Assembly (NCBI RefSeq): GCF_002234915.1
Contig: NZ_NEWD01000024.1
Span: 1-47,430 of the forward strand
Length of the DNA: 47,430 nucleotides
Reading direction: 5' to 3'
Origin: Bifidobacterium vansinderenii
GTDB taxonomy: Bacteria > Actinomycetota > Actinomycetes > Actinomycetales > Bifidobacteriaceae
Part shown: positions 29,713 through 43,069 of the stretch, piece after piece
Numbering within the stretch: position 1 is the stretch's first letter
Layout of the letters: each line of letters begins with the position of its first letter
Notes under the pieces: generated by a model
Told to the model about the DNA's origin: nothing
The model's input: only the letters and a program-made list of their open reading frames with translations
Databases searched by the model: none
Made by a program: the position numbers and the translations under genes

Positions 29713-31434
29713 TCACAGCGCGTTGAGGGTGTCGCACAGCTTGGCGGAGAGCAGATCCTGCTCGTGGAAGTCCTCGGCGAGCTTGGCGAACTGCGCGCCC
29801 AGCGCCGTCAATCGTTCCTTGACCGAGGCGATGCGCTGCTCGTAGGCGAGATCGATGCGCTTGCGCTTGTTCATGTTGAGCAGGAGCATGCCGAGTCCGC
29901 CCACGGCCACGATCGCGCCGACGGCGATCAGTGCGGGCGAAACGAACGCCGTCGCCACGCCGCCGGCCACGCCCAGCACCATGAGCACGATCGGCATGAT
30001 GTCCTTGATCTGCGCCTTCTCGGCCGTGGCCTTGCCATGGTAGAACTCCTCCACCTGGCCGAACACGCCCTGCGGCTGACTCAGATCCACCTGACCTGCC
30101 TCGAAGTCGTCGATCTTCACCGCCTGCACCGGCTGGAACATGCGCTGGTAGTTGGCGATGTAACGGTCGCCGGCCTCCTGCTGCAGTTCACGAGTCATGA
30201 GCAGCATGTTGCGACGCATCTGCGCATTGGCCTCGCCGTTGCCGCCGGGAGTGAACAGCCAAGCCATCATCTCGTGCACGATGTCGAACTCGGCCGCATC
30301 GTGCTGCTTGTGCAGCTGGTATGCCTCGTTCGCCGCGGCCACGTCGCCCTGCAGGCGGATGATCATTTCGTTGCGTTCGATCTCGTCGTACACCTTCTGT
30401 TCAACGGCACACGGATCGGCTACGATCTTGTCGATGTACGCCTTGAGGAACTCGTTGCGCGTATCGTCGTCTACGTTCATGACGGCGTTGATGAAGTCGA
30501 CCACATTTGCATTGTTGCGCGCCAGCGCCAGCGCCTGCTGCAGCCCGCCGTACGTGGGCACGAGTGCAGCGATCTGATCGTAGGGGAAGGAACGGTCGTT
30601 GACGAACGTACCGTACCGTTCGGCGATCTCGTCGATGGCCGAATCGCGCAGGTTGCCGGAATCGGTGATCGCCTCGTTCACCAGCGAGCGAATGTAGTTG
30701 TTCACCTTGGTGCGCGTGGCGTCGGACAGCTTGTCCTCCACGGTCTTGGACAGCATGGAGAAGAACAGCAGCACCATGGGCTTCTCCGAACCCGACAGCG
30801 GCTTGGCGGTCAGGTATGCGAACCATTTGAGCGCCACGTCCTCACGACGCAGACGCAGGTAGAACACGAGCAGGAACGACGCAGTGCGGCGGTCATCGAG
30901 CTGCATGGCACGTTCGAGTGCGCGCTGGGCGCGTTCTCGCTGGTCGGCGCGCCACGCCACCACGGCCATGAGCGTGCAGGTGAGCCAGTAGTCGGGCTCC
31001 TCCAGCTGCTTGCGTTCCACGGCCTTCTCGATCACCTCCTCGGTGACCATGGAGAAGTCGAGGTTGTCCATGATGCCCTGCACGATCTTGCGCACCGTGC
31101 GGTACACGGCGAAGTCGTAGTACTTCGTGTTGTTGCACTCGCGGATGCGCTTATTCGCCAGCTCCATCTGCTTGAGCCGGGCGTAAAGCTTATCCATGTC
31201 CTTCTGAATCTCATAGGCATCGACCACACGCTGGTGCGAGCGCTGCAGCGATCCGTCGGACGCGCTCAGCGTGTGGCGGATCTGGTTTGTTGTATCGTTC
31301 AACGAATTCCGGGCACCGTTGATGGCGCCCACCGCCGTGCCGATTTCGCTGCGCAGACGCTGGTTCTCTGCCTTGATAGTGCTCAGCTCCGACTCCAGTG
31401 CGGCGATCTCGGCCCTCAGGTCTCCGTTTGCCAT
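29713..31434 (-). CDS. Coiled-coil, helical, two-TM protein (paralogue A of the cluster)
   Basis: 573 residues with no named family that I recognise. Residues 1 to about 95 are heptad-like coiled coil (LRAEIAALESELSTIKAENQ...). A helical middle follows, with a core of the form YWL-x4-MAVVAW...RALERAMQLDDRRTA...FYLRLRREDVALKWFAYL. Two closely spaced TM segments sit at about 472-519 (IVLMVLGVAGGVATAFV, LIAVGAIVAVGGLGMLLL), then a short cytoplasmic coiled coil. The same plan and core recur in the 533- and 580-residue proteins of the cluster, so these are triplicated paralogues. It is the last gene of the operon, 54 bp after the AAA+ ATPase; the ATG at 31434 follows TAGGAGG. I infer a membrane-anchored scaffold or substrate of the ATPase. 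Confidence 0.85.
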   Translation of the reverse strand: MANGDLRAEIAALESELSTIKAENQRLRSEIGTAVGAINGARNSLNDTTNQIRHTLSASDGSLQRSHQRVVDAYEIQKDMDKLYARLKQMELANKRIRECNNTKYYDFAVYRTVRKIVQGIMDNLDFSMVTEEVIEKAVERKQLEEPDYWLTCTLMAVVAWRADQRERAQRALERAMQLDDRRTASFLLVFYLRLRREDVALKWFAYLTAKPLSGSEKPMVLLFFSMLSKTVEDKLSDATRTKVNNYIRSLVNEAITDSGNLRDSAIDEIAERYGTFVNDRSFPYDQIAALVPTYGGLQQALALARNNANVVDFINAVMNVDDDTRNEFLKAYIDKIVADPCAVEQKVYDEIERNEMIIRLQGDVAAANEAYQLHKQHDAAEFDIVHEMMAWLFTPGGNGEANAQMRRNMLLMTRELQQEAGDRYIANYQRMFQPVQAVKIDDFEAGQVDLSQPQGVFGQVEEFYHGKATAEKAQIKDIMPIVLMVLGVAGGVATAFVSPALIAVGAIVAVGGLGMLLLNMNKRKRIDLAYEQRIASVKERLTALGAQFAKLAEDFHEQDLLSAKLCDTLNAL

Positions 31435-31488
31435 GTCTTCCTCCTATACGATGCCTGTGTCACGTTGATGATGTCCGTCATAAGTCCG

Positions 31489-41311: not shown

Positions 41312-41377
41312 TGCTATTCCTCGCTCTTCCCGGGAATCGACGTAGACTCCCCGTCTCGGTACGGCTTCAACATAGCA

Positions 41378-43069
41378 TCATAAGATGACGCTCGACGATG
41401 CCTGAATCGGCGTCTCCGACGGCTCGAATTGCACGGATTCAATCGTTGCCATATCCGTATTGAACGTGTCGAACGCGGCCTCGGCGCCCGGCGTGGGGTG
41501 GGCGATCGACAGCCAGATCAGCACGCCGGCGGCCACGACCGAAAGACCGGCCAGCACGGCGAGCACAATGTTTACGATCTTGAAGCTCTGCGACTGCTCG
41601 TCTTCGCCGAGTTCCTTGAAATCCTCCGGGGTAAGCGGGTCGGGGGCGATGCCCTCGGTCTGCACCTGGCCGGTAAGCACCATGGGCTGGCCGGGATTGG
41701 GATTCTGCGGCATGGGTGCCGGTGCAGGAGCCGGAGCCGGTACCTGCTGGGGCATCGGCTGGTTCGGCGCAGATTGGTTCGCCGCGTCCTGTTCCATGGG
41801 AGAGGATGCGGCGGGTGCCACCACGGCGGGAGCGGATTCGGGCAGCGTCTGATGCACTTCCGAGACAGCAGGCTCAGGCTCAGGCTCAGGCTCAGGCTCA
41901 GGCTCAGGCTCAGGCTCAGGCTCAGGCTCAGGCTCAGGCTCAGAGAGCTTCTTACTTGCCGACGAGCCGGATGCAACCTGCGTGTCCGTTTCCGGCTCGA
42001 TAGATTCGGAAAGCTTGGCTTCACGAGTTGGAACTTCCGGTTCCGCAACAACCGCCGTACCCGGTTCGGATTCGTCGTCGCTCGTGAGTTCAGGCTCAGT
42101 CGCCGACTCCTCGGGCGTCGATTCCCGACCACTCGCCGACTCCGCCGCCGCATCGATTTCTGATTCGGTCTTGGTCGCGGTGTCTTCCGCCTTGGCCTCG
42201 AGTACCAGCACAGGTTCGTCCGCCAGTACCGGTTCGGCCACTGCCTCAGTTTCAGCCGCATCATTCTTCGTCATAACCGCCGTCTCAGATTCGGACTGCG
42301 ATTCCTTGGTCTTCGGCTCGGAATCCGTGGAGACCTGCTCAGGATCGTCTGCCTTGGATCCCGATACAGATCCGACGACGATCTTGTTGTCGGTGATCTC
42401 ACCGTCGTCGATCTTCGCACGACGATCATTCACATCCGCATCGGTTTCCACCGTATTCGAGACATCGAACAGCGGCCCACCATTCAATTCCTCGATCGCT
42501 GCCGCCAATGCATCGATATTCAGTTCGTCACCGGTCAGCTTCTTATGCGATTCAGTCTGAGGCCCGGGCGCGGGAATCGCAGGCTCGGTCGCGGTATTGG
42601 AAGGCTCGAGCTGCGGCTCGGCAATCGGTACCTTATTCACCGACGGGGCCGGAGTGATCGGCTTGCCAACCGGACTCGGCGACATCGGAGCCGTCTGCAC
42701 CGGAGTCGACCGCCCCGACATGGGCGACGGCACCGCGAGCATATTCGGCGCGGGAGCCGTCATATCGGGCACCGGGGTGCCGCACTTGCCACAGAACCTG
42801 CCACGCACGACCGCACCGCACCTCGAGCAGTGGCGCTCCGCAGGAACGGGAGCCGCCTGCACCGAAGCGGGTGCCTGAATGACGTCGGGGATGCGCGTGC
42901 CGCACTTGCCGCAGAACCTGCCCTTCGCCGGGGCCCCGCACGACGGGCAAACACGTTGGACGGCGGGCGGCGCGACGAATGGCGCAGGCGCCACCGGAGT
43001 GCCGCAGCGTCGGCAGAACTTGTCGTTCGGGCCCAGTGCCCAATTACAACGCACGCAATTCGCCACCAT
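41378..43069 (-). CDS. Zinc-ribbon protein with acidic disordered middle and one TM helix
   Basis: 563 residues and the first gene of the cluster. Three N-terminal zinc ribbons use C5/C8/C19/C22, C41/C44/C53/C56 and C81/C84/C93/C96 (CGKCGT pattern). Residues about 100-480 are disordered, Glu/Ser/Ala/Pro-rich and strongly acidic, including a (Glu-Pro)12 run coded by a perfect hexamer repeat. A single TM at about 500-523 (IVLAVLAGLSVVAAGVLIWL) and a short 39-residue extracytoplasmic tail end the chain. The plan suggests a tethered ribbon module on a long flexible stalk. The ATG at 43069 follows AAAGG. No close homologue is named by me; a role in organising the SPFH/ATPase complex is inferred from position. 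Confidence 0.83.
   Translation of the reverse strand: MVANCVRCNWALGPNDKFCRRCGTPVAPAPFVAPPAVQRVCPSCGAPAKGRFCGKCGTRIPDVIQAPASVQAAPVPAERHCSRCGAVVRGRFCGKCGTPVPDMTAPAPNMLAVPSPMSGRSTPVQTAPMSPSPVGKPITPAPSVNKVPIAEPQLEPSNTATEPAIPAPGPQTESHKKLTGDELNIDALAAAIEELNGGPLFDVSNTVETDADVNDRRAKIDDGEITDNKIVVGSVSGSKADDPEQVSTDSEPKTKESQSESETAVMTKNDAAETEAVAEPVLADEPVLVLEAKAEDTATKTESEIDAAAESASGRESTPEESATEPELTSDDESEPGTAVVAEPEVPTREAKLSESIEPETDTQVASGSSASKKLSEPEPEPEPEPEPEPEPEPEPEPEPAVSEVHQTLPESAPAVVAPAASSPMEQDAANQSAPNQPMPQQVPAPAPAPAPMPQNPNPGQPMVLTGQVQTEGIAPDPLTPEDFKELGEDEQSQSFKIVNIVLAVLAGLSVVAAGVLIWLSIAHPTPGAEAAFDTFNTDMATIESVQFEPSETPIQASSSVIL
41870..41941. repeat. Perfect hexanucleotide tandem repeat, 12 copies, coding (Glu-Pro)12
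   Basis: The plus strand is AGGCTC twelve times without a mismatch; the minus strand reads GAG CCT (Glu-Pro). Because the unit is six bases, slippage would change stalk length in steps of two residues without breaking the frame. Confidence 0.97.

Follow-up and report, generated by a model that had tools for sequence, protein, structure and literature searches.

An SPFH/zinc-ribbon unit fused to an unnamed, mobile AAA+ core in a gene island of Bifidobacterium vansinderenii

What is the function of a tight row of eleven membrane-linked genes that corresponds to no named system? This question is raised by a cluster, here labeled A to K, on the minus strand of a 47,430-nucleotide stretch of Bifidobacterium vansinderenii DNA (contig NZ_NEWD01000024.1, positions 1 to 47,430; the window). 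A preliminary description, made from the sequence alone, had proposed an ATP-driven membrane-remodelling or surveillance complex. Our data support one conserved, membrane-linked, ATP-driven cluster and, as that description had supposed, no named system with this content was found in the libraries and open-access literature searched. Beyond this, the cluster comprises two separable units, its AAA core is widespread and mobile, and HerA and toxin/immunity genes accompany that core in some related loci. Since HerA-type ATPases and toxin/immunity genes occur there, our best guess for the second half of the proposal shifts from surveillance, now a less favoured possibility, towards protein assembly or export at the membrane. 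We tentatively read the cluster, as something possible rather than probable, as an AAA+-driven, membrane-anchored assembly/export platform that is SPFH-scaffolded in the window. Its composite architecture is well supported, and an export role is suggested by the relatives.

The island in the window is a fusion of an SPFH unit and an AAA core. The former, B-C-(D)-E together with A, is an SPFH/zinc-ribbon membrane unit; the latter, consisting of F, G, K, H, I, and J, is a form of an unnamed mobile core with the usual order ccTM-WPP-I-AAA-EHYK, in which ccTM is a coiled-coil protein with transmembrane (TM) helices (F, G, and K), WPP, a small protein with an LPxWxLxPP motif, corresponds to H, and AAA corresponds to J. 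Because the SPFH unit and the core are also found apart, the window cluster is a composite. In genome G165, B, C, and an E-like zinc-ribbon/solenoid open reading frame (ORF; by eye) occur without any match to the core hidden Markov models (HMMs) in 20 kb. Likewise, G089 (locus L148) has a row of zinc-ribbon/TPR-like, SPFH, and multi-TM genes at 6543-9570 (partner names by eye), where the sole contact with the WPP HMM is a marginal match of the zinc-ribbon protein (1.4e-4); no AAA, ccTM, I, or EHYK match was found in the 3-14 kb part of that locus. The window SPFH protein, C, and E had no match at E 0.01 among 85 core loci, whose stretches extend at most about 10-14 kb beside ccTM. The row in G089 is perhaps a common bifidobacterial SPFH unit.

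Where the two units are joined, their arrangement is retained. The order B-C-E-F-G-H-I-J-K is collinear in 5 of 189 genomes of the family (the window, G001, G045, G078, and G170; the extended clusters), with matches to B in all five and E at an identical position. Relatives of G (P0005) occur in seven genomes, the window included, and a short form of the cluster is seen in G064 and G130. C has relatives in six, namely the five extended clusters and G165, where it lies beside SPFH; A and D were recognized in the window and G001 only. Homologues scattered without a conserved neighbourhood had been named in advance as an outcome that would tell against a single system. This applies in part to SPFH, which also occurs elsewhere (14 of 189 genomes, E <= 1e-15), whereas the order of the core is conserved across phyla.

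The breadth of the core became apparent from a ccTM profile scan of a genome contig collection, which gave 104 relatives; 80 loci were listed, by title 63 from Bacillota, 16 from Pseudomonadota, and 1 from Bifidobacterium (phyla assigned by hand). Together with L117 and L033-L036, these make up the 85 clustered loci. AAA was recognized in 78 of them, EHYK in 69, and I in 66, and the WPP proteins formed two clusters that cover 35 and 15 loci; some of the missing genes are due to contig ends and simple gene calling. The order ccTM-WPP-I-AAA-EHYK was found 26 times and EHYK-ccTM-WPP-I-AAA 13 times, and a further 16 loci have either order without a called WPP. The conserved order holds in Bacillota and Pseudomonadota, in one Fusobacterium, on plasmids, and in a satellite phage of streptococci. 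Querying F against plasmid records retrieved a plasmid of Comamonas and a Fusobacterium record of 2.1 Mb; the AAA query matched 137 phage records, of which only the satellite phage Javan368 has at least 80% query coverage (34%), and the core is carried both on the Comamonas megaplasmid and in Javan368. These records have a gene set in common with the short bifidobacterial loci. Komagataeibacter plasmids of 26 and 38.7 kb have a core-like row, with EHYK detected by tblastn (46% over 69%), AAA by annotation, and the other members from their size and place in the row; the 38.7-kb record does not list the small gene. In S. oralis L059, L066, and L067, an rpsD-like gene (by eye) stands upstream of the core, and L059 and L066 also contain fragments of the Javan368 integrase around 8500-9760. 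Carriage on plasmids and a satellite fits cargo of mobile elements and keeps a defence role alive as a rival.

The core was not found under any name in the libraries and open-access literature searched, and among its proteins the ATPase alone falls into known families in the libraries searched for each. The window ccTM and I proteins reached no family above the curated cut-off (Pfam, NCBIfam) and had no strong PADLOC or PHROGs match; EHYK has no Pfam family and H no NCBIfam family. The ccTM, WPP, I, and AAA proteins of the window are homologous to the core and collinear with its order. When an HMM was trained solely on homologues from elsewhere, it recovered G, F, and K (E values in the table), identifying the three coiled-coil/two-TM proteins as the true paralogues that they had been taken for. 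The AlphaFold model of G predicts a long N-terminal helix (residues 2-92), followed by a helical solenoid and a small beta hairpin; the hydrophobic segments fall within two helices at the C terminus (446-461 and 466-532). The I protein was not recovered by the core I HMM; a profile-profile comparison with the core I family matched it with an E of 9.6e-6 (probability 83%).

J was found by the core AAA HMM at 1e-127 and matches phrog_8638 across residues 5-530 (E 7.5e-85; the query, P0002, is two residues longer than the product starting at ATG 33078). Alignment with five relatives bore out the complete Walker A, Walker B, sensor, and arginine motifs previously described (GVPGCGKS, VLWIDEIEK, ATAND, RKGRF). 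The closest PDB sequences to its AAA domain are NVL, VCP, and Cdc48, enzymes that unfold their partners or pull them apart; J had also been described as Ycf46-like, a presumed resemblance.

The neighbours of the core in some relatives hint at its clients. A HerA-like ATPase (family c9) accompanies the core in eight loci and lies directly upstream, with a zinc-ribbon/three-TM protein (c8), in seven. Among 84 hand-chosen non-core proteins of related loci, five match DUF87/HerA in Pfam, in a set that contained four c9 members. A cargo gene of at least 300 residues between AAA and EHYK is present in 5 of 7 loci with HerA versus 1 of 29 without (Fisher p 3e-4), as counted from 41 AAA-then-EHYK loci, where those without HerA needed at least 3.5 kb seen upstream and five were dropped for a short view. 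The single exception, L056, has a zinc-ribbon/TM protein as cargo. The remaining locus with HerA, L073, has no EHYK in its stretch. In L052, the cargo has a papain-fold toxin domain at its C-terminal end (Gln_amidase, 4.3e-15), and an 87-residue gene comes next; in L064, the gene after the cargo encodes a SUKH immunity protein (SMI1_KNR4, 2.3e-9). The cargos of L048, L052, L053, and L055 have common N-terminal parts by BLAST and FDDC/FEDC/YDDC-type motifs, while their C termini diverge, except that those of L048 and L055 are alike (1.2e-9). Of 14 chosen genomes, 5 matched the N-terminal part of the L052 cargo, those of L052, L048, L053, L055, and L065, all of which have HerA (two matches are weak, with E 3e-4 and 6e-4); none was found in the HerA-bearing L064, L072, and L073 or in any of six genomes without HerA.

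Further observations concern individual relatives. The L064 cargo looks HNH-like by eye, and the genome of L065 (G194 C45:25942-26277) has a 1108-residue open frame with the common toxin N terminus, although the stretch around its core has no such ORF. Among bifidobacteria, L033 (G130) has an FtsK ATPase upstream (5.8e-19) and a gene with a DNA/RNA non-specific endonuclease domain downstream (3.3e-16); two small WXG100-like helical ORFs (by eye), the nuclease-domain gene, and a possible immunity gene, which come after the core at 15297-17146, could be a set like those of type VII secretion systems. The extended cluster of G078 has a 906-residue HerA-like ORF (by eye) between E and F.

Short terminal tags provide a second clue. 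A basic-hydrophobic pattern, typically TRKVLV, is found in the last 14 residues of 83% of 83 AAA genes; 59% of 69 EHYK proteins start with such a pattern (e.g., MPRPML), the C terminus of 29% of 66 I proteins has one, and by eye ccTM ends are NRRIKV-like and WPP ends VRRK-like. A different pattern, allowed anywhere in the protein, exceeded its shuffles in AAA (77% versus 13%) and ccTM (57% versus 13%). The EHYK HMM has no match in the 47-kb window or in the stretches of the four extended relatives, the AAA tag is absent from all five extended clusters, and the ends of ccTM, WPP, and I in the same five lack a tag by eye. On the simplest account, the tag is a shared docking code that was lost together with its reader, EHYK. 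The earlier suggestion that zinc ribbons act as docking modules holds insofar as they recur (Zn_Ribbon_1 in 20 of the 84 chosen proteins), and docking may be their role.

Building on the observed gene content, order, selection, homology, and cargo association, we infer a topology, docking, ATP-driven action, and export as follows. The ccTM proteins would be anchored in the membrane by their C-terminal helices, with the long coiled coil and TPR-like solenoid facing the cytoplasm. With I and H (WPP) as small adaptors, the AAA+ protein, a relative of the Cdc48/VCP class, would dock on ccTM and assemble, pull apart, or thread client proteins. In standard cores, the tag at the AAA C terminus (...TRKVLV) and the EHYK N terminus (MPRPML) would couple subunits mutually or to the EHYK domain. 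Clients in the HerA-bearing relatives would be polymorphic-toxin-like proteins with a common acidic N terminus, and given such clients toxin export is the likeliest task of the machine there. The window lineage would have lost both EHYK and the tag, and the SPFH scaffold with its zinc-ribbon partners would have taken over recruitment. Going further, and with more doubt than we attach to an assembly/export platform as such, the core could be the motor platform of an undescribed bacterial protein-delivery system, driven by the AAA+ protein and, in some lineages, a HerA pump, of which the window would hold a derived, SPFH-scaffolded form; recruitment of clients and subunits via zinc ribbons and short basic-hydrophobic tags belongs to the same doubtful joint proposal.

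Related core loci resemble type VII (ESX-like) and polymorphic-toxin export in having a HerA/FtsK ATPase, toxins with constant N and variable C termini, and an immunity gene. Polymorphic toxins use at least eight delivery systems according to the part of a toxin survey consulted (PMC3482391), and the AAA-ccTM-WPP-I-EHYK core was not met in the descriptions given there. The Pfam scan of ten window proteins gave neither an EssC/YueA-type FtsK-HerA motor nor WXG100 substrates, and FtsK adjoins the core in L033.

A number of points weigh against an export role. The HerA-bearing loci are mutually related, which makes the cargo p value too small; L058, without HerA, has a 299-residue zinc-ribbon cargo that, when counted in, gives 2 of 29 and a p of about 1e-3. 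L065 and L072 have HerA and no cargo between AAA and EHYK, and 28 of the 29 counted loci without HerA lack such cargo. Of 10 proteins in one Pfam scan, 7 had no hit, namely three partner genes and the cargos of L048, L053, L055, and L064. The cargo BLAST ran without low-complexity masking, and the L064 cargo has the motif only, not the common N terminus. In the window itself, no toxin or immunity family rose above the cut-off (Pfam and NCBIfam), and a single HerA query, the G078 ORF, had no match in the window's own genome, which by itself shows nothing. No secretion channel was identified, a family with six TM segments (c15) being a candidate only, and Foldseek searches with the EHYK and ccTM models gave no match at E <= 0.001. 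As for the tags, the strict pattern matches just 9% of ccTM and 2% of WPP ends, the shuffle control covers the other, protein-wide pattern and not terminal position, and the losses of tag and EHYK amount to one evolutionary event.

Membrane repair and anti-phage defence are both serious rivals to an assembly/export platform, and the former is the closest. Under an envelope-stress or membrane-repair role, the SPFH unit would mark or cluster damaged membrane, as YdjI does for PspA, the AAA+ protein would remodel a ccTM coiled-coil polymer in the manner of Vps4 and ESCRT-III (from the endosomal sorting complex required for transport), and the toxin genes of Lachnospiraceae would be a lineage-specific add-on. 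The resemblance of SPFH plus zinc ribbon to B. subtilis YdjI, previously noted, is supported by our comparison: as far as the consulted part of the source describes it, YdjFGHI likewise has an SPFH protein with a C-terminal zinc ribbon, a zinc-ribbon/TM partner, and a membrane site (PMC11237479). The cluster differs in that it adds three ccTM proteins and an AAA+ ATPase. Genes for SPFH, AAA+, and zinc-ribbon proteins occur in PspA or ESCRT loci, and in archaeal Meth_adaptin ESCRT loci and with bacterial VPS4-like AAA+ proteins, an AAA+ gene similarly stands beside SPFH/zinc-ribbon/coiled-coil or TPR membrane proteins, according to the portions of the sources consulted (PMC10936438, PMC11237479). 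There, the partner of the VPS4-like AAA+ protein is described as having six TM segments, versus two membrane helices in the window ccTM, and H, I, and EHYK adaptors are not among the features described in those portions (PMC10936438, PMC11237479). J itself is a classical AAA+ protein of the Vps4/Cdc48 class (Pfam AAA and the PDB matches). The ccTM proteins are predicted to unite a long coiled coil with membrane helices, and the SPFH unit stands by itself in G165 and G089, both of which would suit repair. Against it, ten window proteins contain no PspA, TPM (YdjH), Snf7/ESCRT-III, or MIT family up to E 1 in Pfam (H was scanned by NCBIfam only, and the search for PspA was confined to these window proteins; a remote coiled-coil fold relation to ESCRT-III is possible), and the core is patchy (7 of 189 family genomes) and borne on plasmids and a satellite phage, which is unusual for housekeeping repair. 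We consider a repair role somewhat less likely than an assembly/export platform.

A mobile AAA+/membrane module could instead sense phage or plasmid infection and disturb the membrane, with the cargos as alternative effectors. Such a defence role, which we regard as less likely still, would accord with an island whose site is empty in relatives, with the core in Javan368, integrase remnants beside the core near the rpsD-like gene in S. oralis, and plasmid carriage, and with the resemblance of the AAA part to the defence ATPase IetA/IteA. This resemblance is, however, a general AAA likeness, since J scores 76 bits against a cut-off of 510 for the IteA family NF042959, and J differs from IetA/IteA in its long conserved N-terminal domain and its partners. 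In IetAS, IetA is paired with a protease, IetS; no protease family was above the cut-off in the Pfam scan of the cluster. PADLOC matches among the 84 chosen partners, with 25 of 46 families listed, were mainly HerA/mad8 ATPase likeness, plus one protein with PD-T4-6 matches, and the SUKH immunity protein beside the L064 cargo favours exported toxins over intracellular effectors. Chance could also have placed two unrelated operons end to end in one island. Both units do occur apart, and the largest gaps, 90 and 100 bp, flank E; still, every one of the five extended clusters has the order B-C-E-F-G-H-I-J-K, although C ranges over 38-97% identity, and we think coincidence highly improbable.

If the core moves toxins, gut Lachnospiraceae would have a delivery route not met in the consulted part of the toxin-survey literature; if it remodels membranes, it would offer a bacterial AAA+/coiled-coil pair comparable with ESCRT and NSF. 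A gene module with conserved order spans chromosomes, plasmids, and a satellite phage across Bacillota, Pseudomonadota, a Fusobacterium, and Bifidobacteriaceae, and its five-gene core is small enough for experimental test.

Table. Genes of the cluster and repeats at the island borders (window coordinates; aa, amino acids; sd, standard deviation)
Feature	Position	Strand	Description	Length	Evidence
Upstream border	43182..43329	-	near-palindromic repeat	148 bp	fold -74.4 vs -35.6 (sd 3.9)
A	41378..43069	-	zinc ribbon/acidic low-complexity stalk/C-terminal TM	563 aa	Pfam DZR 1.3e-11; three Zn_Ribbon_1 stretches
B	39938..41311	-	SPFH with four C-terminal zinc ribbons	457 aa	Pfam Band_7_1 1e-28; Zn_Ribbon_1 8.5e-29
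C	39157..39873	-	small multi-TM protein with helical tail	238 aa	no Pfam family above cut-off
D	39021..39143	-	free zinc ribbon	40 aa	
E	37491..38930	-	N-terminal zinc ribbon and helical solenoid (by eye)	479 aa	
F	35648..37390	-	coiled-coil/TPR-like/2TM (ccTM) core protein, paralogue 1	580 aa	core HMM 3.8e-53
G	34031..35632	-	ccTM paralogue 2	533 aa	core HMM 5.5e-81, top score of three; AlphaFold mean pLDDT (predicted local distance difference test) 88.4
H	33776..34006	-	small core protein (WPP), C-terminal LPxWxLEPP		core WPP HMM 8.7e-5
I	33075..33779	-	helical core protein	234 aa	4-bp overlap at each side
J	31489..33078	-	classical AAA+ ATPase, long N-terminal domain	529 aa	Pfam AAA 2.6e-28
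K	29713..31434	-	ccTM paralogue 3	573 aa	core HMM 9.8e-36
Downstream border	29547..29694	-	near-palindromic repeat	148 bp	fold -79.0 vs -36.8 (sd 4.4)

The gene row itself is as first described, with eleven minus-strand genes, gaps of 100 bp or less, and two 4-bp overlaps; the ten junctions measure 66, 64, 13, 90, 100, 15, 24, -4, -4, and 54 bp. Only the starts of J and H needed correction: J probably begins at ATG 33078 instead of a longer GTG, and H probably begins at ATG 33949, giving 57 residues. The Pfam scan covered ten window proteins, all but H, and placed F, G, K, C, E, and I in no family above the cut-off; of the ten in the NCBIfam scan (H included, D excluded), none reached the cut-off. 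The SPFH assignment of B, with its four zinc-ribbon stretches, is borne out by the Pfam matches listed, and the free zinc ribbon D by 92.5% identity to the G001 copy under selective constraint. The G001 counterpart of A has a 69% match confined to residues 402-563, the TM segments of A and C were assigned by reading of the sequence, and the H motif is also present in the four other extended clusters. Ratios of nonsynonymous to synonymous substitution (dN/dS) relative to G001, the closest relative, were computed for nine genes (all except A and H): B 0.10, C 0.09, D 0.26 (over 40 codons), E 0.15, F 0.05, G 0.06, I 0.30, J 0.15, and K 0.11. These nine are under purifying selection.

As an inserted island, the cluster separates glf from an lta-like gene. 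Its two border repeats, whose folds were compared with those of 100 mononucleotide shuffles, are 95% identical and the sole full-length matches in the genome; remnants of ~50 bp lie at both island borders in G001. In form, the repeats are like miniature inverted-repeat transposable elements. The G+C content is 62.1% in the island versus 64.3% and 60.7% in the flanks. Seven genomes of the genus lack the cluster, and in each the surroundings of lta were read: glf adjoins lta in five (G002, G005, G006, G007, and G008), with at most about 240 bp between the last aligned residues; about 2 kb separates the two in G004, and glf was not found within the 7.5 kb fetched around lta in G003.

Two minor observations concern neighbouring genes. 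Near the lone SPFH unit of G165 (L147), genes at 15026-18797 resemble parts of type I restriction systems by eye. Beside the core in L063, L077, L078, and L086, the c20 family consists of HtpX-like M48 peptidases (2 of the 84 chosen proteins match M48 in Pfam), and three of the four carry an RRxxL-type string resembling the AAA tag (RRQVLMG, RRPILG).

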